64,000 bases of DNA. Source: Barnesiella viscericola DSM 18177 (GTDB lineage Bacteria; Bacteroidota; Bacteroidia; Bacteroidales; Barnesiellaceae). Position numbers and translations under genes: made by a program. Position 1 is the stretch's first letter. Every line of letters begins with the position of its first letter. The stretch lies in the NCBI RefSeq assembly GCF_000512915.1, contig NZ_CP007034.1, positions 1,426,001 to 1,490,000 on the forward strand, given 5' to 3'. The notes beneath the pieces were generated by a model. That model did not search any database. It was given only the letters and a program-made list of their open reading frames with translations, and was not told the DNA's origin. This document shows, in pieces, positions 1,237-45,512 of this stretch.

Positions 1237-3279
1237 ATGGGGATTGTACAACACGACGAAACGATAACGATTGAAGCCAACCGACTGCGAAACGAACAAC
1301 TGAAACGATTCTATTCGCCCGAGACGGGCGAGGGGAGCGACACGGGCGACCGCCGACCGATACGGATCGGCGACGCTCCGCTGCCCCTGCAATATATCCC
1401 GGCGGCCATGTTTGACGAGCCGCTGGTCCAACAGCTCGCACAGGCGGGCAGCCTCGCGGGCTATCTGCGGCAGCAAGGGGTCGACACGCCCGGCGAAGGG
1501 CACACACTGCTACCCAACGGAGAGAGCGACGACGAGGGCGACATCTCACCCCTCCTGTCGCTGTGGCGGGAGTGGATACGGGTGCGCATTCGATACGACT
1601 TTGAGTTCTGGGCATACAGTTTCGTGCGCATCAAGAACAAGCTGGGGGCCGACGACATACCCTTCCGGCTCAACCGGCCACAACGCCGCATACTGGGTAT
1701 GCTCGAATCCATGCGCACCACCGACCGCCCCATTCGCCTCATCTTGCTCAAAGCCCGCCAATGGGGCGGCTCCACCCTCATACAGATTTACATGGCCTGG
1801 ATACAGCTGGTGCACCGGCGCAACTGGAACAGCGTGATATGCGCCCACATCAAGGAGGCGGCGGCCAACATCAAGGGCATGTACAGCAAACTGCTGGCCA
1901 ACTATCCCGACTGGCTGCTCGACGAGGGCAAGCCCAAATTCCGCCCCTTCGAGCGCATGGCCAACACCTCGGTCATCGTCGGGCGCGACTGCCGGGTCAC
2001 CATCGGCTCGGCCGAGAGTCAGGAGTCGGTGCGGGGCATCGATGCCGCCATGGCCCACCTCTCCGAGGTAGCCTTCTGGCGCAACAGCCGCATGAAGTCG
2101 CCCGAGCAACTGGTACGGTCGGTGTGCGGGTCGATCATGCTGCTCCCCTACTCGATGGTGGTGATGGAGAGCACGGCCAACGGCACCGGCTCCTACTTTC
2201 ACCAGGAGTGCGAGCGGGCCAAGCGGCACGAAAGCGACAAGCTGTTTGCCTTCGTCCCCTGGTTTGAAATCGAGATGTATGCCATTCCCGTCAACGACTA
2301 CGACTCGCTCATCGCCACTCTCACCGACTACGAACGCATGCTCTGGGACCGGGGGGCTACCCTCGAAGCCATCGCCTGGTACCGCCAGAAGCGGAAGGAG
2401 TATTCGCGCCACACCGACATGATGGCCGAGTATCCCAGCGACGACATCGAGGCCTTCTGCTACTCGGGCGAACGGGTGTTCGACCCCACGCTGGTCGAGC
2501 GGTTGCGCCACGGCTGCTGCGCGCCCCGGTTCGAGGGCGACATTCACGGCAAGGAGCTCACCGGCCGCGAGGCTCTCGAAGGCATCGAGTTGGAGGCCAA
2601 GCCAGGTGGCCCCCTGCAAGTGTGGGAATATCCAGCCGAACACCACGACATTCGCGACCGCTATCTGGCGGTAGTCGACATCGGCGGCCGCTCCGACATG
2701 GCCGACTACTCGGTCATCGCCATCTTCGACCGCTACTGGATGCTCGAAGGGGGGCCCGCCGAGGTCGTGGCCCAATGGCGGGGACACATCGACCACGACC
2801 TGCTCGCCTGGAAGGCCGCCCAAATGGCCGCCTACTACCAGAACGCCCTGCTGGTCATCGAGAGCAATACCCTCGAAACCGAGCACGACGACAGCGAACA
2901 CTCGGCCTACCTGCTCGACACCCTCTCACGCTACTACGACAACCTCTACGCCCGGCCGGCACCCCCCGACAGCATCGGGCAACGCCCCTCCTCCCGCTGG
3001 GGATTCCACATGAACCGGGCCACCAAGGTGCTGGTCATCGATGCCCAACGATCGGCCCTGCGCGAAGGGGCCTACATCGAGCACGACGCCCGGGCCTGCT
3101 ACGAGCACGACGTGTTCGAGCGCAAACCCAACGGCAGCTACGGAGCCATGGAGGGGCACCACGACGATATTCTCATCACCCGCTGCATAGGCAACTACAT
3201 TTGCAGCCGCGACCTCCCCTCGTTCATCAAGCCCGGCCACCGGGGCGGCGAGCCCATCGTCAACGAGTCGTCGATATAG
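1237..3279 (+). CDS. Phage-type terminase large subunit, orphan
   Basis: Terminases package phage DNA using an ATPase and a nuclease domain. The ATPase half shows a Walker A-like motif (KARQWGGST, about residues 171-179) and a Walker B-like segment ending SEVAFW (about residue 280). The nuclease half shows acidic clusters in AVVDIGGRSD (about 477), VIESN (about 540) and HHDD (about 641), as in RNase H-fold terminase nucleases. I chose the ATG at 1237, which has GGAAGAG just upstream, over an in-frame TTG at 1216; this gives 680 aa. No portal, capsid, small terminase or tail genes follow, and composition matches the host chromosome. It may be a domesticated or remnant phage gene. Family call is firm; function is not known. 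Confidence 0.8.
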   Translation: MGIVQHDETITIEANRLRNEQLKRFYSPETGEGSDTGDRRPIRIGDAPLPLQYIPAAMFDEPLVQQLAQAGSLAGYLRQQGVDTPGEGHTLLPNGESDDEGDISPLLSLWREWIRVRIRYDFEFWAYSFVRIKNKLGADDIPFRLNRPQRRILGMLESMRTTDRPIRLILLKARQWGGSTLIQIYMAWIQLVHRRNWNSVICAHIKEAAANIKGMYSKLLANYPDWLLDEGKPKFRPFERMANTSVIVGRDCRVTIGSAESQESVRGIDAAMAHLSEVAFWRNSRMKSPEQLVRSVCGSIMLLPYSMVVMESTANGTGSYFHQECERAKRHESDKLFAFVPWFEIEMYAIPVNDYDSLIATLTDYERMLWDRGATLEAIAWYRQKRKEYSRHTDMMAEYPSDDIEAFCYSGERVFDPTLVERLRHGCCAPRFEGDIHGKELTGREALEGIELEAKPGGPLQVWEYPAEHHDIRDRYLAVVDIGGRSDMADYSVIAIFDRYWMLEGGPAEVVAQWRGHIDHDLLAWKAAQMAAYYQNALLVIESNTLETEHDDSEHSAYLLDTLSRYYDNLYARPAPPDSIGQRPSSRWGFHMNRATKVLVIDAQRSALREGAYIEHDARACYEHDVFERKPNGSYGAMEGHHDDILITRCIGNYICSRDLPSFIKPGHRGGEPIVNESSI

Positions 3280-3449
3280 CCGGGCTGGATAAAAGATAAA
3301 ATCGGGCAATTTCGCCCGGCGGCACGCAATCACGAGTCCACTCGACCCGAACCCGGACAAACACCCGCCACACCTCTTTCGGTTTGACAAGAAACCCTAA
3401 TAATCTGAAAAATAGCTCCGCTGCCTGCGGCTTTCTGTGACAATCCTTC

Positions 3450-3457
3450 TATCTTTG
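3450..3457 (+). promoter_or_regulatory. Bacteroidetes -7 element (TATCTTTG) for the thioredoxin gene
   Basis: An exact TAnnTTTG match lies about 110 bp upstream of the secreted thioredoxin gene. No clear -33 TTTG is visible, so support is from the -7 box and position only. Confidence 0.45.
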
Positions 3458-3564
3458 CCCCCCAGAAAGCCGCAACAGGGGAGCACAGTTTTTCAAACCG
3501 AAGCAAATCCCTGTCTCCGATCGCGTTTCTCCCCACCTGTTCAAGCTCCGCAAATGATACCGAT

Positions 3565-4038
3565 ATGAATACAAAATACATCATAGGAATCGTACTCGCC
3601 AGCCTGTTGTTCACCGCCCCGGTGCAGGCCCAAAAGCAAACCGCCCCGGCCGAAAAGACCGAGACCCGAGCACAGAGCGTCAAACCGCGTCACCTCACCA
3701 AAGCTGAGTTTCTCTCGAAGGTTGCCAACTTCGAGAAGACCCCCGACCGCTGGGAGTACCTCGGTGCCCGTCCCTGCATCGTCGACTTCTACGCCTCGTG
3801 GTGCGGTCCCTGCCGCAAACTGGCTCCCATACTCGAAGAACTGGCCACCGAATACGCCGGGAAAATCGACATCTACAAAGTCGACGTCGACAAGGAACCG
3901 CAGCTGGCCGCCATCTTCGGGGTGCAAAGCATTCCCACCTTGCTCTTCTGCCCCATGACGGCCCAGCCCCAAATCGCCACCGGCTTCATGGACAAGGAGG
4001 CGCTACAACAGGCCATCAGTCAGGTGCTGCTCCCGTAA
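3565..4038 (+). CDS. Secreted thioredoxin
   Basis: 157 aa. An N-terminal signal peptide ([16 protein letters not shown], with likely cleavage after VQAQ) targets it to the periplasm. The thioredoxin fold carries the redox motif ASWCGPCRK (about residues 75-83) and the cis-proline loop QSIPT (about residue 122). The family reduces or exchanges disulfides in envelope proteins. It is slightly longer than cytosolic thioredoxin because of the leader and a linker of about 40 residues. It stands alone, with a -7 promoter element upstream and a convergent exonuclease gene downstream. Confidence 0.92.
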
Positions 4039-4112
4039 CCGGGGCCGCCCCCGTTTTTCACAAACCAAGACAAGAGATTAGAGGAATCACCCTCGACACG
4101 ACACGCCCGGGA

Positions 4113-4628
4113 CTACTCGTCGTCATCGGGCCACAGGCGCATCGCAATGCGGGCACACCCCTCGGCATCGGCCAGGGCGTTGTGGTGATGGTCAAAAGGG
4201 ATACCCAGATAGGCGCACACCGTGGGCAGCCGATAGTTCGCGATGTCGGTGCGCGGGATCAACCGCCTGGCCCGCGTGAGGGTACAAAGAAAATCGCCAT
4301 ACACATAATCGATGCCATACATGCGGCAGGTCGCCCGCAACACCCGCTCGTCGAAAGACTTGTTGTGAGCCACCAGCCTCAACCCCTCGACCAACGGCGA
4401 AACCTCGCGCCACACCTGCCCAAAGTTGGGCGCATCGCAAGTATCAGCCGGGAAGATACCATGTATCTCCTCCGAAAAGCGGCGGATATAGTAGTCGGGC
4501 TCGGGGCAGACCAACCGGTGAATGCGGTGCGTCACCTCGCCCCCATGCACCACCACGAGCCCCACCGAGCAGATACTCGTGGGTTCGTAATTGGCAGTCT
4601 CGAAATCGATGGCGGCAAAATCTTTCAT
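4113..4628 (-). CDS. DEDDh 3'-5' exonuclease (DNA polymerase III epsilon-like)
   Basis: 171 aa from the ATG at 4628; a GTG two codons upstream is possible. The DEDDh exonuclease motifs are present: Exo I in AAIDFETAN (Asp and Glu near the N-terminus), Exo II in VAHNKSFDERV (about residue 90), and Exo III with a His and Asp in HNALADAEG near the C-terminus. Family members trim DNA or RNA 3' ends, as in the DnaQ proofreading subunit. The protein is a bare nuclease domain without a polymerase-binding or BRCT domain, so it is probably a repair or maintenance exonuclease rather than the replicative epsilon subunit. Confidence 0.88.
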   Translation of the reverse strand: MKDFAAIDFETANYEPTSICSVGLVVVHGGEVTHRIHRLVCPEPDYYIRRFSEEIHGIFPADTCDAPNFGQVWREVSPLVEGLRLVAHNKSFDERVLRATCRMYGIDYVYGDFLCTLTRARRLIPRTDIANYRLPTVCAYLGIPFDHHHNALADAEGCARIAMRLWPDDDE

Positions 4629-38927: not shown

Positions 38928-39969
38928 AAATAACGTGAGTTCGATATAAAGATTGAAATTATCAGTTTGAAAATTAGGAACATAGCGATAAAAGCATTAA
39001 ATTTATAGTGCTCAATTATAACATTTAAGCGACTACCACTATGTTCTCAGAGGCTAAAGTTACGGAGATTTTTTGTATGGCGGATGATTTTTGCAAGGAA
39101 TTTGCCAAAACACAGGAAAAATATATGGTTGAAGACAAGAATCATAAGCATCGGAATAAGCCGAACCGGATGAGTGATGCGGAAATCATGGTCATCCTAG
39201 TCCTGTTCCACTCGGGAGGCTTCAGATGTTTCAAGCATTACTACAAAGAATATGTATGCAAACATCTGACGCATCTCTTTCCCAGACGTGTGTCCTATAA
39301 CCGTTTTGTAGAACTGGAAAAGGAAGTCCTGCTGCAGCTGACCATTTTCATCAAGGAAGTCCTGTTGGGTACTTGTACCGGTATCAGCTTTGTGGATTCC
39401 ACACCGCTGCGTGTATGCCGAAACCAACGCATATTGATTCACAAGACTTTTAAGGGTCTCGCCGAACGTGGAAAATGCTCCATGGGATGGTTCTTCGGGT
39501 TTAAGCTTCACCTGATCATCAACGATAAGGGTGAAATTCTCAATTTCATGTTTACTCCGGGAAATGTGGATGACCGTGAACCGCTGAAACAGACAAAGTT
39601 CCTGAAGAACATCAAGGGCAAACTGTGTGCGGACAAGGGGTATATCGGGCAAACCTTGTTCGAGAACCTATTTCTTAACGGCATACAGTTGATAACCAAA
39701 GTGAAGAACAACATGAAGAACTCCCTGATGAGCATAGCGGACAAAATCCTGCTGAGAAAACGAGCTTTGATTGAAACAGTCAATGACGAGTTAAAGAACA
39801 TCGCCCAGATTGAACACTCCAGACACCGTTCCTTCAATAACTTTATTGCCAACTCGCTCTCTGCCATAGCTGCATACTGCTTCTTTGAAAAGAAGCCCGC
39901 CATTGACGTACGTTTTGTCAAAGACGGACAACTCACGATGTTTTAATTTATATCGAACTCACGTTAAAT
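38928..39969 (+). mobile_element. IS982-family element 2, with target duplication
   Basis: Perfect 19 bp inverted repeats, AACGTGAGTTCGATATAAA (38932-38950) and its complement (39947-39965), flanked by AAAT (38928-38931 and 39966-39969). The body is 38932-39965 with one intact transposase. It lies 96 bp downstream of element 1 in the same orientation. Confidence 0.9.
39041..39946 (+). CDS. IS982-family transposase (element 2)
   Basis: 301 aa, intact. DDE motifs: GISFVDSTPLRVC, CADKGYIGQTLF and LIETVNDELKNI, at the same positions as in element 1. The proteins are clearly homologous across their length, with scattered substitutions and few length changes. Confidence 0.95.
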   Translation: MFSEAKVTEIFCMADDFCKEFAKTQEKYMVEDKNHKHRNKPNRMSDAEIMVILVLFHSGGFRCFKHYYKEYVCKHLTHLFPRRVSYNRFVELEKEVLLQLTIFIKEVLLGTCTGISFVDSTPLRVCRNQRILIHKTFKGLAERGKCSMGWFFGFKLHLIINDKGEILNFMFTPGNVDDREPLKQTKFLKNIKGKLCADKGYIGQTLFENLFLNGIQLITKVKNNMKNSLMSIADKILLRKRALIETVNDELKNIAQIEHSRHRSFNNFIANSLSAIAAYCFFEKKPAIDVRFVKDGQLTMF

Positions 39970-40215: not shown

Positions 40216-41520
40216 TTACTGCTGGTTGAGCAGGAAATGCTTGAAGGCATTAAAGCCCACGGGCATCAGGATACTCTGCTTCTCGCCCTGCATGAAATCG
40301 CGCAGTTTCTCGGGAACCGGGACAGGTTCGCCAATGGCCGACTCGACCGTGTCGAGAAATTTGGCCGGGTGGGCCGTTTCGAGACAAATGCCAATTTCGC
40401 CGGGCTGCAACCCGTCGACCAGCGCCTGATAACCACAGGCCCCGTGGGGATCGAGCAGATATTGCTCGTTGCGGAAGGTATCGTGCATGGTGCGACGTAT
40501 CTGGTCGTCGGTATAACTTACACCGCTGATATCGGCACAGATAGCCTCGTGCGAATGTCCGTAGAGGTCGAGTATGCGGGCAAAATTGCTGGGGTCACCC
40601 ACGTCCATGGCATTGGCGATGGTCGCTACCGAGGGGCGCGGCGTATAGACGCCCGTGCTCAGGTATTGCAGGAAGACGTCGTTACGGTTGTTGGCCGCGA
40701 TGAAACGCTTCACGGGGAGCCCCATGCGCTTGGCGATGAGTCCGGCCGTGAGGTTGCCAAAGTTGCCGCTGGGCACGCTGAACACCACCTGCTCGGGGTG
40801 CTCGACCATGCCGCACAACTGGGCATAGGCATAGAAATAGTAGAACGACTGGGGCAGGAAACGGGCCACGTTGATGGAGTTGGCCGAGGTGAGATAGAGT
40901 TTCTCGTTCAGCTCGGGGTCCATAAAGGCTCTCTTCACCAGCGCCTGACAGTCGTCGAAGGTCCCGCTCACCTCCAAGGCGGTGATGTTGTGACCCAACG
41001 TGGTGAACTGCTTCTCCTGAATCTCGCTCACCTTGCCCTGCGGATAGAGGACAAAGACCTTCACCCCGGGCACATCGAGGAAACCGTTGGCCACGGCACT
41101 GCCGGTATCGCCCGAAGTGGCCACCAGCACATTGACCTGTCGCTTCTCCTGCCGGTTGAAATACCCGAGCAGACGGGCCATGAAGCGGGCACCCACATCT
41201 TTGAAAGCCAAGGTAGGGCCATGGAACAGTTCCAGACTATACCGGTTGTCGGCCACCCGCACCAGCGGAATATCAAAGTTGAGGGCATCGTAGACAATCT
41301 CTTTCAACTTGTCGGCCTCGACATCTTCACCAAAGAAAGCCTCGGCCACCACAAACGAGATTTCGCGCAGCGTCATCTCCTTCATGTTCTGGTAAAAGGC
41401 CGGGGGGAACCGGCGAATTACCTCGGGCATATAAAGCCCCTTATCGGCTGCCAGCCCCTTGACCACAGCATCGTGCAGGGAGACTGGCGACGTTTTTTTG
41501 TTCGTACTGTAAAACTTCAT
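40216..41520 (-). CDS. thrC: Threonine synthase
   Basis: 434 aa from the ATG at 41520, preferred over a GTG one codon upstream. It converts O-phosphohomoserine to threonine with PLP. Motifs: FHGPTLAFKDVGARFMA (PLP lysine about 107), LVATSGDTGSA, and LTSANSINVARFLPQ. Last gene of a three-gene operon with thrA and an apgM-type kinase candidate; intergenic gap 11 bp. Confidence 0.96.
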   Translation of the reverse strand: MKFYSTNKKTSPVSLHDAVVKGLAADKGLYMPEVIRRFPPAFYQNMKEMTLREISFVVAEAFFGEDVEADKLKEIVYDALNFDIPLVRVADNRYSLELFHGPTLAFKDVGARFMARLLGYFNRQEKRQVNVLVATSGDTGSAVANGFLDVPGVKVFVLYPQGKVSEIQEKQFTTLGHNITALEVSGTFDDCQALVKRAFMDPELNEKLYLTSANSINVARFLPQSFYYFYAYAQLCGMVEHPEQVVFSVPSGNFGNLTAGLIAKRMGLPVKRFIAANNRNDVFLQYLSTGVYTPRPSVATIANAMDVGDPSNFARILDLYGHSHEAICADISGVSYTDDQIRRTMHDTFRNEQYLLDPHGACGYQALVDGLQPGEIGICLETAHPAKFLDTVESAIGEPVPVPEKLRDFMQGEKQSILMPVGFNAFKHFLLNQQ

Positions 41521-41531
41521 CACGCTTCTAT

Positions 41532-42740
41532 TTATTCTCGAAAGAACTCTTTCATAAATTCATCGCCCGCCAGCGACCCGTAAGCCCCACAAGCGGCACT
41601 GAACTCGTCGTAGCAGTCGACTCCGTCGGGCTCTACCCCGGGTTTGTAGATGACAAACGGTACGGGGGCTGCCGTGTGCGTGCGCACTCGACAAGGTGTG
41701 GGGTGGTCGGGCAAGAGGGCAATGGCCACCGGTTCGTCCATCTGACGCACCGCCTCGATGAGCGGTTGCAGCACGCGACGGTCCAGATACTCGATCGTGC
41801 GGAGCTTCAACGCCACATCACCTTCATGGCCTGCCTCGTCGCTGGCCTCGATATGCAAATATACAAAATCATGTGCATATAGTGCATCGATTGCAGCCTG
41901 AACTTTTCCCTCATAATTGGTATCGTAGAGTCCGGTCGCTCCCTCGACCTCGACAGGCTGCAAACCGGCATAGACACCGATACCCCGAATGAGGTCGACA
42001 GCCGAAATGACCACACCGCTTCGTATGCCGTAGCGCTGGGCCAGCGTCTCCATGCGGGGCTTGTAACCCGGCGACCAGGGCCAAATGCTGTTGGCGGGGT
42101 CTTTCCCCTCGGCCACCCGCCGCAGGTTCACGGGGTGGGAGGGCAGAATCTGTTGCGAGCGCAGAATCAGGTCGTTCAGCCGGTCGGCCGTAGCCGAAGC
42201 CTCGGGCACCAGCGGGCGCACCATCACATCGCGGAAGGGGGTACCGGGCACATCGTGCGGCGGGGTACAGTCGACCCGCTTGTCGCCCCCTTTGAGTTTG
42301 AGCAGGTGGCGATACGACACCCCCCGGAAGAAGTGGACCTCGTCGTCGTCCAACTCCCGTTGCAGGAAGTCGATGAGTTCGGCAGCCTCGGCCGTAGAGA
42401 TATGACCGGCCGAGTGGTTCTTGATTACACCGTTCTCAATGCAGATGAGGTTGCAGCGCATGGCCATCTCGCCCGGCTCGATGTCGACCCCCATGCTGGC
42501 CGCCTCCAACGAGCCCCGCCCCTCGAACACCCGGTCGAGGTCGTACCCCAGCACCGCCAGATTGGCGATTTCGCTACCCGGGTGATACCCTTCGGGCACG
42601 GTTTTGAGCCGGCCGCAGCGGCCGTGAGCCGCCAGCCAATCCATCGCAGGCGTATGAGCCGCCTGCAAAGGGGTACGTCCCCCCAGTTCTTCCACGGGCT
42701 CGTCGGCCATGCCGTCGCCCAGTACAATGATATGCTTCAT
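41532..42740 (-). CDS. ApgM-type protein, proposed homoserine kinase
   Basis: 402 aa of the cofactor-independent phosphoglycerate mutase (ApgM) superfamily: IIVLGDGMADEP with metal-binding Asp (residues 4-15), LKTVPEGYHPGSEIANLAVLGYD (quoted in part, about 47), and HIEASDEAGHEGD (about 295-307). TIGR02535 describes this subgroup as a proposed homoserine kinase, because it sits in threonine operons that lack thrB. Here it lies exactly between thrA and thrC, and no ThrB-like gene is in the operon. So it probably phosphorylates homoserine; phosphoglycerate mutase activity is the alternative. Confidence 0.85.
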   Translation of the reverse strand: MKHIIVLGDGMADEPVEELGGRTPLQAAHTPAMDWLAAHGRCGRLKTVPEGYHPGSEIANLAVLGYDLDRVFEGRGSLEAASMGVDIEPGEMAMRCNLICIENGVIKNHSAGHISTAEAAELIDFLQRELDDDEVHFFRGVSYRHLLKLKGGDKRVDCTPPHDVPGTPFRDVMVRPLVPEASATADRLNDLILRSQQILPSHPVNLRRVAEGKDPANSIWPWSPGYKPRMETLAQRYGIRSGVVISAVDLIRGIGVYAGLQPVEVEGATGLYDTNYEGKVQAAIDALYAHDFVYLHIEASDEAGHEGDVALKLRTIEYLDRRVLQPLIEAVRQMDEPVAIALLPDHPTPCRVRTHTAAPVPFVIYKPGVEPDGVDCYDEFSAACGAYGSLAGDEFMKEFFRE

Positions 42741-42758: not shown

Positions 42759-45194
42759 TTATCGTATGTTGGCAATTCCTATAATATCGGCAAAGACACC
42801 GGCCGCCGTCACCTCGGCACCGGCCCCGTATCCCTTGATGACCATGGGGTACTCGCGGTAACGCTCGGTGGTGAGCAGAATCACATTGTTGCTCCCTTCC
42901 AAATGGTAGAAGGGGTGTGCCGAATCGACCTCGCGCAGCCCCACCTCCACCGCACCGTGGTCGAGCGTGGCGACAAAGCGCAACACCCGTCCCCGGTCGG
43001 CCACCTGTCGGCGATAGACCTCGAAGGTAGCATCGTAATCGGGAATAGCCCGCCAGAAGTCGTCGAGCGTCCCGGTGAAATAGGACTCGGGAATAAAGAG
43101 GTTCTTCTTCACATCGCTCTGCTCCACCCGGTATCCCGCCTCACGGGCCAGAATCACCAGTTTGCGGATTACGTCCTGCCCACACAGATCGACACGCGGG
43201 TCGGGCTCGCTGTATCCCGCCTCCTGCGCCATGCGCACGGCCTGACTCAACGGCACCTCGGCACTCACCACGTTGAAGATGTAGTTGAGCGTACCCGAAA
43301 CGACCGCCTCGATTTTGAGTATCTTGTCACCGCTGTTGATGAGGTTGTTGATGGTATTGATGATGGGCAGCCCCGCCCCCACGTTGGTCTCGAAGAGGTA
43401 TTTCACGTCGCGCTTGCGGGCGGTCTGTTTCAAGGCACGATACGAGTCGTAGGAGCCCGAGGCGGCAATCTTGTTCGAGGCGACGACCGACACGTTGTGG
43501 TCGAGCAACGACTGGTAAAGCGCCGCAATATCGGGACTGGCCGTACAATCGACAAAGACCGAATTGAAGATATTCATCGCGATAATCTCCTCCTTGATTT
43601 TTTGAGGCGAAGCGGGCGTACCCTCGCGGTCGAGCAGCTCGATGCAGTGCTCGATGTCGATACCCTCGCGGTCGAAGAGGCATTTGCGCGAATTGGCAAT
43701 ACCCACCAACCGCAGCTGCAAGGCCTTGGTTTCGAGCAGCCGTTGCTGCTGTTTGCAGATTTGTTTCAACAAATCACGACCCACGGTTCCCACCCCGGCC
43801 ACAAAGAGGTTGAGCACCTGCGACTCGGAGAGGAAGAACGAGTCGTGTATGACGTTGAGCGCCTTGCGCAGGCTGTTGCGGGCAATGACAAACGAGATGT
43901 TGGTCTCCGACGCCCCCTGAGCACAAGCAATCACATTGATACCGTTGCGACCCAACACGTTGAACAGCCGACCGGCAATACCGGGGGTATGCTTCATGTT
44001 CTCCCCCACGATAGCCACGGTAGCCAGTTCCTTCTCGGCCTCGATGCCGCTGATTTCGCCCACGGCAATCTCCTCCTTGAACTCGTCGCGCAGCACCCGC
44101 ACCGCCAGGTCGGCATCGGCGTTGCGCACGGCAAAGGTCGTGTTGTTCTCCGACGAAGCCTGCGATACCAGGAAGACACTAATCCCCGACTCGGCCAGCC
44201 GCTTGAATATGCGGGAGTTGATACCGATAACCCCCACCATGCCCATACCCGACAGTGTGATGAGGCAAGTATCGTTGATCGACGAGATGCCCTTGATGGC
44301 CTTCCCCTCGATGTGCGAATGGTCGGCCGAGATGAGGGTACCGGGAGCCGACGGATTGAAGGTATTCTTGATGAGAATGGGAATGTTCTTGTGAAACACC
44401 GGATAAATCGTGGGCGGATAAATAACCTTCGCCCCGAAGTTGCACAACTCCATCGCCTCGGTAAACGAGAGCCGTTCGATGACATAGGCCGTGTTGATGA
44501 CCCGCGGGTCGGCCGTCATGAACCCGTCGACATCGGTCCAGATTTCGAGTTGCGAGGCGCCCAGTGCCGTAGCCAGAATCGACGCCGTATAGTCCGACCC
44601 ACCCCGACCCAGATTGGTCACATCGCCCGTCACGCGGTCCGAAGCGATAAAACCGGGCACCACGGCCACCCGGGGCAGCTCGGCAAAATAGCGCTTCACC
44701 AGCTTGTTGGTCTCCTCGAAATCGACGATATGCTTGCCATACTGGCGACGCGTCTTGATAAAGAAACGGGCATCATAATGAGCCGCCCCATCGACCACCC
44801 GGCTCACAATGAGCGACGAGAGGCGCTCGCCATAGCTCACAATCGTGTCAAGCGTCTTGGTCGAGAGGTCCTTGATGAGCGACACACCTTTGAAGATATT
44901 GCCCAACTCGCCCAGCAGCGGGTCGATAAGAGCCAGCAACTCGGTCTGTTTCTGTGGGGCAACGGCATTGGCCACCATCGCCTTATGCCGCTCGACGATG
45001 GCCCGGAAGTGACTCTCATACCCATCGCCACCCTCCACGGCCACACGAGCCGTCTCGATGAGCCGGTCGGTAATCCCGCCCAGGGCCGATACCACGACAA
45101 TAACCGGTTCGTGACAACTCTCTACTATCTGTTTCACACTCGACATGCTCTCGACCGAACCTACCGAAGTGCCTCCGAATTTCAATACTTTCAT
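42759..45194 (-). CDS. thrA: Bifunctional aspartokinase / homoserine dehydrogenase
   Basis: 811 aa from the ATG at 45194. Aspartokinase part: MKVLKFGGTSVGS at the start, WTDVDGFMTADPR (about 225), then paired ACT domains (about 315-455) for feedback control by threonine. Homoserine dehydrogenase part: NAD(P)-binding VLNLFVAGVGTVGRDLL (about 465), then FETNVGAGLPIINTINNL and SGTLNYIFN (about 620-650). It makes aspartyl phosphate and homoserine. First gene of the threonine operon, with a leader of about 280 nt. Confidence 0.97.
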   Translation of the reverse strand: MKVLKFGGTSVGSVESMSSVKQIVESCHEPVIVVVSALGGITDRLIETARVAVEGGDGYESHFRAIVERHKAMVANAVAPQKQTELLALIDPLLGELGNIFKGVSLIKDLSTKTLDTIVSYGERLSSLIVSRVVDGAAHYDARFFIKTRRQYGKHIVDFEETNKLVKRYFAELPRVAVVPGFIASDRVTGDVTNLGRGGSDYTASILATALGASQLEIWTDVDGFMTADPRVINTAYVIERLSFTEAMELCNFGAKVIYPPTIYPVFHKNIPILIKNTFNPSAPGTLISADHSHIEGKAIKGISSINDTCLITLSGMGMVGVIGINSRIFKRLAESGISVFLVSQASSENNTTFAVRNADADLAVRVLRDEFKEEIAVGEISGIEAEKELATVAIVGENMKHTPGIAGRLFNVLGRNGINVIACAQGASETNISFVIARNSLRKALNVIHDSFFLSESQVLNLFVAGVGTVGRDLLKQICKQQQRLLETKALQLRLVGIANSRKCLFDREGIDIEHCIELLDREGTPASPQKIKEEIIAMNIFNSVFVDCTASPDIAALYQSLLDHNVSVVASNKIAASGSYDSYRALKQTARKRDVKYLFETNVGAGLPIINTINNLINSGDKILKIEAVVSGTLNYIFNVVSAEVPLSQAVRMAQEAGYSEPDPRVDLCGQDVIRKLVILAREAGYRVEQSDVKKNLFIPESYFTGTLDDFWRAIPDYDATFEVYRRQVADRGRVLRFVATLDHGAVEVGLREVDSAHPFYHLEGSNNVILLTTERYREYPMVIKGYGAGAEVTAAGVFADIIGIANIR

Positions 45195-45289
45195 AGCTAC
45201 ACTATATATTGGTCCAACCTGCCGTCCTCGCACGGGGAGCAGGCCCTACCCATTAAAAAAGGTTGACTGAAAAAAAACAATACCACAAC

Positions 45290-45334
45290 GGTCAATCGAA
45301 ACAAAAAACAAAATCCTCCCACCCCTAAGGGGTG
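45290..45334 (-). promoter_or_regulatory. Candidate transcription attenuator of the thr operon
   Basis: On the minus strand, the hairpin CACCCC-TTA-GGGGTG overlaps the end of the leader peptide and is followed by GGAGGATTTTGTTTTTTG. The U-rich tract is separated from the stem by six bases, so this is a weaker terminator than usual; a competing antiterminator stem was not clearly identified. Confidence 0.4.
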
Positions 45335-45387
45335 ATACCCGTTGCAGTCATGCAATGACAAAAGATGGTATGTAGCAGTACGGTCAT
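45325..45387 (-). CDS. Candidate threonine-operon leader peptide
   Basis: A 20-codon frame (ATG at 45387, TAG at 45325-45327) in the thrA leader. Five of its residues are Thr and two Ile, concentrated at the end (MTATGITP), the two amino acids expected to regulate a thr operon. Its last codons form the 5' arm of the hairpin CACCCC-TTA-GGGGTG, and a T-rich stretch follows. No clear ribosome binding site is visible. Whether it is translated is unknown. Confidence 0.45.
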   Translation of the reverse strand: MTVLLHTIFCHCMTATGITP

Positions 45388-45479
45388 TGTGTTCGTCGCT
45401 TGGGGGCGGACCCACAGCCCCGGCATCGGCATGAAACCGGTGACGGACATCGAGCCTCGCCAAACATTTTCTTTTTTTG

Positions 45480-45512
45480 CAAATGTAATCTTTTTTTTGT
45501 TTTTCAAGCAAA
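45480..45512 (-). promoter_or_regulatory. Promoter of the threonine operon
   Basis: Minus strand: -33 TTTG (45512-45509), 21 bp spacer, -7 TACATTTG (45487-45480). It predicts a leader of about 280 nt before thrA. Confidence 0.65.

Follow-up and report, generated by a model that had tools for sequence, protein, structure and literature searches.

A conserved threonine-rich leader before thrA in Barnesiella viscericola and other Bacteroidales, very probably a ribosome-read threonine sensor

The window analysed here, a stretch of 64,000 nt from the single-contig, 3.08 Mb genome of Barnesiella viscericola DSM 18177, carries on its minus strand an operon in the order thrA, proposed homoserine kinase and thrC. 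The first gene (42759-45194) encodes a bifunctional aspartate kinase/homoserine dehydrogenase I (NF006959, 1023.6 bits against a cut-off of 726), the second (41532-42740) is apgM-like (TIGR02535, 559.6 bits; cut-off 446.3) and the third (40216-41523) encodes threonine synthase (TIGR00260). Among the best 80 of 591 related loci, thrA of Candidatus Barnesiella excrementavium is 99% identical to that of the window over its best segment. Pointing away from the operon is a gene for a type I asparaginase, and a 301-aa ORF on the plus strand (39041-39946), which we take to resemble an IS982-type transposase, adjoins thrC.

Upstream of thrA, a TTTG element at -33 (45512-45509) and TACATTTG at -7 (45487-45480), separated by 21 nt, form what we presume to be a match to the Bacteroides-type promoter consensus; TA-NN-TTTG is equivalently placed in nine upstream regions of the genus. 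The predicted transcription start at ~45474 gives a leader of ~280 nt. It contains a 20-codon ORF encoding MTVLLHTIFCHCMTATGITP (45387-45325), whose frame and start are kept in relatives, the ATG (45387-45385) across the genus, and whose TAG stop (45327-45325) falls at the loop of a hairpin, P2 (CACCCC-UUA-GGGGUG, 45334-45320), made by the last leader codons. GGAGGA and a U-rich tract (45319-45299, the tract itself 45313-45299) follow and are conserved within the genus. Further downstream lie a second, weak hairpin (ACC...GGU, 45292-45282) with a U8 run (to 45270), a poor terminator here, and a third hairpin (45245-45216) ~20 nt 5' of the thrA start codon, which is paired in relatives despite altered sequence. 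The promoter, leader, 20-residue frame, hairpin and U-rich tract of the first-pass annotation are therefore all where it had placed them, on the minus strand. TAACTTTG, which Barnesiella species carry on the 5' side of the third hairpin, was considered as a second promoter and rejected by eye for want of a fitting -33 element.

Folding of the window leader was unremarkable. In isolation P2 has an energy of -8.9 kcal/mol, equalled by 3 of 200 shuffles of its 17-nt stretch, and in wider context four stretches of 46-146 nt were ordinary (z -0.31, -0.77, +0.44 and -0.59), as was the whole 280-nt leader (z +0.62). The second hairpin reaches -1.9 kcal/mol, and the third -14.7 kcal/mol yet a z of only -0.34. 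We rejected single-sequence folding as uninformative evidence in the window, and the case for the leader consequently rests on comparison. The exact ACCCCTTAGGGG hairpin occurs at a single site in the genome, and none of the 12 other sites with one mismatch has a Thr-rich leader.

In each of the nine genus genomes a small ORF closes with TTP or ITP and meets its stop codon at the loop of the hairpin, and the ACCCCUUAGGG core is the same in all. Across Bacteroidales we used a detector requiring an ATG 8-50 codons 5' of an in-frame ACC that opens an ACC[CT]N2-5GGGG hairpin, with at least 2 Thr nearby. Of 222 thrA upstream regions, 115 pass (101 of 205 distinct ones once copies are removed), whereas only 3 of 2220 shuffles that preserve dinucleotides do; the hairpin being palindromic, 10 of the 222 reverse strands pass too. 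Dropping the Thr criterion gains only two loci. The 222 regions include 79 of the best 80 of 591 related loci (36 passing, 43 failing), the remaining one (L238) being omitted as it had no thrA start. Passing loci include those titled Barnesiella (L062), Coprobacter (L064, L101), Parabacteroides (L072, L076, L077, L087), Bacteroides (L091, L097, L119, L127, L139) and Phocaeicola (L100, L105, L107, L113). The 107 failures include all three Alistipes (L090, L095, L126), both Cryptobacteroides (L074, L099), all three Paludibacter (L117, L136, L141), 8 of 8 Tannerella sp., both Prevotellaceae (L096, L137) and three Muribaculaceae (L068, L092, L133), together with Barnesiella sp. WM24 (L071), Phocaeicola coprocola (L108) and Mediterranea (L085). 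A covariance model described below, R1, recovers 4 of 19 regions missed by the detector (L111, L178, L183, L191), indicating that the detector undercounts; this Bacteroidaceae model is also blank on L071, L080, L084, L085, L090, L108, L117 and L126. With passes and failures inside the same families, the element is patchy even within families. Lack of conservation of the frame or hairpin in close relatives, named at the outset as grounds for abandoning the leader, is clearly not what these counts show, and sequence comparison confirms the thrA leader element as real and conserved.

The hairpin that the first-pass annotation placed over the last leader codons proved to be conserved across families. 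P2 reads as T-P-stop for Barnesiella and Coprobacter, T-P-W-G-V for Parabacteroides and others, T-P-R-G where loci are Phocaeicola-like and T-L-R-G where they are Bacteroides-like; its CCC/GGG stems carry loops such as UUAG, UUCG and CUCG. Since the hairpin is kept while the encoded residues differ, stop included, it is the RNA and not the peptide that is conserved at the end of the ORF. The CCCC/GGGG stem is identical in all nine genomes of the genus, so that no covariation is found there, and double changes are zero in the genus, Bacteroides-type, Phocaeicola-type and mixed 36-row alignments. A stem that barely varies yields covariation neither for nor against its pairing, and the predicted pairing of P2 rests on conservation rather than covariation.

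A long-range helix, P1, is supported in Bacteroidaceae between leader codons ~3-8 and bases just 3' of P2. Codons are counted from the first in-frame ATG that follows the matched promoter, a rule that puts the numbers off in, for example, L002, L003, L050, L153 and L174. The segment pair named for the Bacteroides leader is UACUAUCC/GGAUAGUA. P1 is rewired between species: many have UACUAUC/GAUAGUA and L097 has CCUAUAU/AUAUAGG, while the pairs are UAUUAUUAUCC/GGAUAAUAGUA in L134, CUAUAUACA/UGUAUAUAG in L185 and ACAUUAUA/UAUAAUGU in L105. Leaders pair better with their own partner segment than with swapped ones, both at all 69 Bacteroidaceae-type loci (-10.44 vs -8.63 kcal/mol; 0 of 2000 permutations) and at 36 representatives to which the 69 were thinned (-9.62 vs -7.89 kcal/mol; 0 of 5000). 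Our permutation tests ignore phylogeny, the guard here being five controls with reversed sequence or other segments, which gave 1343-4585 of 5000. Several representatives, for example L086, L116, L131, L148, L200 and L237, have no clear P1 equivalent. In the window's genus, P1-type pairing is not above that of swapped pairs (218 of 2000), and the best of 30 segment pairs in a Barnesiella grid (49 of 1000) is insignificant after 30 tests. The first-pass annotation found no alternative stem; our comparisons establish none in the genus and support one, P1, in Bacteroidaceae. A Bacteroidaceae pairing of the 5' UTR with an arm of P3, good by eye, was left as unproven after failing the own-versus-swapped comparison (507 of 2000; 4842 of 5000); UTR60 against +1..+40 gave 17 of 3000.

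Two further Bacteroidaceae hairpins, P3 and P4, covary. The mixed alignment of 36 rows has 45 double-changed cells and 28 Phocaeicola-type rows have 38, mostly in P4, numbers reached by 0 of 500 shuffles in either case; covariation is weak in 41 Bacteroides-type rows (8 cells, reached by 35 of 500 shuffles), where P3 is paired in 78.7% of cells. The second and third hairpins of Barnesiella covary as well (11 cells in nine species; 13 of 500). The loop of P3, shortly 3' of the leader stop in Bacteroidaceae (e.g. L049:2165-2316), is nearly invariant as CUACGYG, a constancy suggesting that something binds P3.

For codon counts, 15 of the 115 detected loci were removed as identical over 120 nt round the hairpin, leaving 100 leaders. 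Their ten codons before the hairpin (1000 residues) are 30.2% Thr and 16.7% Met, whereas Thr falls to 1.5% and 2.9% when the remaining two frames are read; all four Thr codons are used at the Thr positions. Excluding the hairpin-adjacent residue, the values are Thr 27.3%, Met 11.0% and Ile 3.3% (Ile 7.6% in the Barnesiella/Coprobacter-like group), compared with 5.2%, 1.4% and 8.6% in the ThrA protein. Of the two residues predicted to be regulatory, Thr is thus enriched as anticipated and Ile is no higher than in ThrA, so the thrL pattern of Thr and Ile acting together is not seen. By the same measure Met is present in 62 of 69 Bacteroidaceae-type and 12 of 17 Barnesiella/Coprobacter-like leaders, in 2 of 8 Parabacteroides-like leaders and in 0 of the remaining 6. 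ThrA makes homoserine, a precursor of Thr and of Met alike. The codons, together with attachment to threonine-pathway genes, make Thr a well-supported candidate for the signal of the leader, and are suggestive of Met as a co-signal. The predicted ORF has the form expected in an attenuator, a short leader with codons for the pathway product. An alignment of Bacteroidales leaders for covarying stems and conserved Thr/Ile codons, the check proposed with the original annotation, has turned up covarying stems in P3/P4 and in the second and third hairpins of the genus, but not in P2, and a conserved excess of Thr, but not of Ile, codons.

R1, a covariance model of P2, P3 and P4 built from 36 of the 69 Bacteroidaceae-type leaders, has a single match in each of 30 out of 91 Bacteroidaceae genomes; in a sample of 296 genomes from the class it matches 3, every one of them Bacteroidaceae. 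With strict filters and its Bacteroidaceae origin, it misses the window's own genome in the class sample. Directly 5' of thrA lie 25 of the 30 matches; the other five (G252, G217, G266, G288, G212) precede the proposed homoserine kinase gene. Inspection of the DNA 5' of 20 homoserine kinase genes revealed a sixth such leader (G297, L287). Fifteen of these 20 have the end of ThrA immediately 5', and of the five that do not, L285, L286, L294 and L296 are without the leader. In G252, G217 and G297 thrA is on a separate contig. The six homoserine kinase leaders (L280-L284, L287) are rich in Thr, at 22 of 60 residues, and beyond the start codon lack Met altogether (0 of 149 residues). On the ten-codon measure Met accounts for 0 of 60 residues here as opposed to 92 of 690 in thrA leaders of the Bacteroidaceae type (Fisher p 0.0006, uncorrected for kinship). 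Because five of the six come from one genus and the start of the L284 leader is uncertain, the absence of Met is a lead and not proof. Leaders before homoserine kinase nonetheless provide a ready-made way to learn which codons matter.

A regulatory role for the leader peptide is strongly supported by these comparisons, and we regard the Bacteroidales thrA leader as very probably a ribosome-read threonine sensor. The explanation that we favour as a whole, and consider probable, is that the 5' leader of thrA-homoserine kinase-thrC senses charged tRNA-Thr through its translation. A ribosome would translate the short peptide, whose final Thr-rich codons abut or sit inside P2, and in many species tRNA-Met may be sensed too. 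When Thr-tRNA is scarce, the ribosome would stall at the Thr codons and cover the 5' arm of P2, allowing expression of the operon; a stall at earlier codons would cover P1. When Thr is plentiful, the ribosome would finish and leave, P2 and P1 would fold and expression would fall. For the off state our best guess, as the most likely route, is termination in the U-rich region 3' of the leader, dependent on Rho or assisted by pausing. We lean this way because a leader ORF has been retained, the helices on either side of it would respond to a ribosome, and an intrinsic terminator cannot be recognised.

Leader translation might instead act on translation or stability of the mRNA, altering the third hairpin (45245-45216) and in this way setting thrA translation or decay. 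In every group the region from -75 to -12 before thrA has, on average, more structure than its shuffles (mean z between -1.19 and -1.77; Bacteroidaceae-type leaders thinned to 35 of 69), and within the genus its pairs covary. Structure around the start codon of thrA (-20..+20) is nevertheless ordinary in four of five groups, and the third hairpin of the window is, as noted, no better than its shuffles. In Barnesiella, leaders matched to their own third-hairpin region do pair better than swapped combinations (74 of 3000, as against 2574 and 2175 for reversed controls), a weak signal from nine species that we regard as suggestive. The stronger result for a mixed set of 17 (0 of 3000) is confounded by composition in its Coprobacter-like half, where reversed controls are also significant (68 and 31 of 3000). 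No group gave a signal when the 3' arm of P2 was tried against the third hairpin or against +20..+60. Control at the level of translation or decay is unlikely.

A classical attenuator of the thrL type, in which P2, the second hairpin or, in Bacteroidaceae, P4 would be an intrinsic terminator and a stalled ribosome would favour an antiterminator, was weighed by scanning the nine genus genomes for a hairpin with a U-rich tail between leader and gene. That logic is easily recognised in other leaders of these very genomes: the scan is positive for hisG in 9 of 9 and for ilvD in 9 of 9, with energies of -11.0 to -28.5 kcal/mol and medians reached by 0 of 90 shuffles for either leader. The thrA leaders gave 4 weak candidates in 9, all in the shuffle range and none in the window, and their shuffles, averaging -6.7, did better than the real leaders. 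Nor did real exceed shuffled leaders in any of the wider sets (10/17 vs 27/34, 3/6 vs 8/12, 38/69 vs 82/138 and 3/8 vs 9/16), so that no intrinsic terminator between the leader ORF and the first gene is found in excess of shuffles. The proposal that P2 itself terminates did not hold up, the U tract beginning six bases past P2 in the window and being absent after it in Bacteroides-type loci. In favour of the second hairpin, its stem covaries in the genus and a U-rich run lies behind it in the nearest relatives of the window, but it is only -1.9 kcal/mol in the window. P4 with U-rich DNA is the best scan candidate in 12 of 69 Bacteroidaceae-type loci (L049, L097, L105, L107, L150, L155, L158, L161, L169, L172, L173, L177), so an intrinsic stop may exist in some species. 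As a general account of the leader, the classical attenuator is distinctly improbable.

Action of the peptide itself, as an arrest peptide or trans-acting product and not through codon-specific stalling, could be imagined for Parabacteroides-type leaders, which are near-constant around YYTWALMTPWGV and have few Thr (L051, L053, L072, L076, L077, L087, L089, L110), but is very improbable given that residues other than Thr and Met vary freely across families and that the hairpin is kept though the residues it encodes, stop included, differ.

More tentatively, these leaders may form a class of attenuator in Bacteroidales that is read by translation and lacks an intrinsic terminator, in which the closing codons form a near-invariant hairpin, a long-range helix in Bacteroidaceae joins the start of the ORF to bases 3' of that hairpin, and the codons track the pathway branch downstream (Thr and Met before aspartokinase/homoserine dehydrogenase, Thr alone before homoserine kinase).

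To our knowledge, amino-acid control in common gut anaerobes has been little mapped. Table 1 of Weinberg et al. (2010; PMC2864571) includes the Bacteroid-trp motif (RF01692) of Bacteroidetes as a probable regulatory RNA acting in cis; the thrA leader resembles it as a candidate cis-regulatory leader in that phylum and differs in preceding, judging by name, a different operon and in having no Rfam match to it in the window or 17 related loci. Clues to leader-peptide attenuation before amino-acid operons have been reported in Flavobacterium psychrophilum (PMC9723704), which belongs to the same phylum and illustrates the same kind of regulation; the passages concerned give no thrA leader or mechanism. 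A transcriptome of B. thetaiotaomicron describes small ORFs reminiscent of leader peptides in some long 5' UTRs (PMC7366714), in a main text from which the word threonine is absent, and uORF motifs have been described elsewhere (PMC8632094). No thrA or threonine leader of Bacteroides or Bacteroidetes was found in the literature searched, which excluded subscription papers, supplements and preprints. Likewise, no T-box or known amino-acid riboswitch was matched by Rfam in the window, the leader or 17 related loci, and the five matches in the leader at E <= 10 are all unrelated.

The threonine leader known from gamma-proteobacteria is that of E. coli thrL, represented in Rfam by Thr_leader. The Bacteroidales leader is like it in placing a Thr-rich leader peptide directly 5' of thrA of the threonine operon and in its codon logic. 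It differs in that no intrinsic terminator was found, Ile is unenriched, Met is enriched in many species and the end of the leader makes its own hairpin, and the Thr_leader model has no gathering match in the window and none in 17 relatives. Closer to hand are leaders resembling MNIMLLHVISLSVISELIVVSR before ilvD and MLFLSLHHHHLHIPYGGVR before hisG, textbook attenuators in 9 of 9 Barnesiella genomes (loci L250-L267; in the window's genome, upstream of G000:C1:847574 and G000:C1:2649301). They share with the thrA leader its promoter type, leader length, gene-proximal place and regulatory codons in a short leader, and differ in their strong hairpin and U-run terminators (9 of 9), setting the thrA leader apart from the hisG and ilvD attenuators of its own genus. 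This juxtaposition of the thrA leader with textbook His and Ile-Val attenuators raises the question of how a leader peptide of Bacteroidota controls an operon without an intrinsic terminator. One precedent may be the E. coli TopAI-YjhQ uORF, in which a ribosome stalled on a small ORF reportedly controls the downstream operon in a Rho-dependent manner and without an intrinsic terminator. That uORF senses antibiotics, whereas the Bacteroidales leader would sense an amino acid, with a conjectural role for Rho, and would constitute a defined threonine, perhaps also methionine, sensor in Bacteroides, Phocaeicola, Parabacteroides, Coprobacter and Barnesiella loci.
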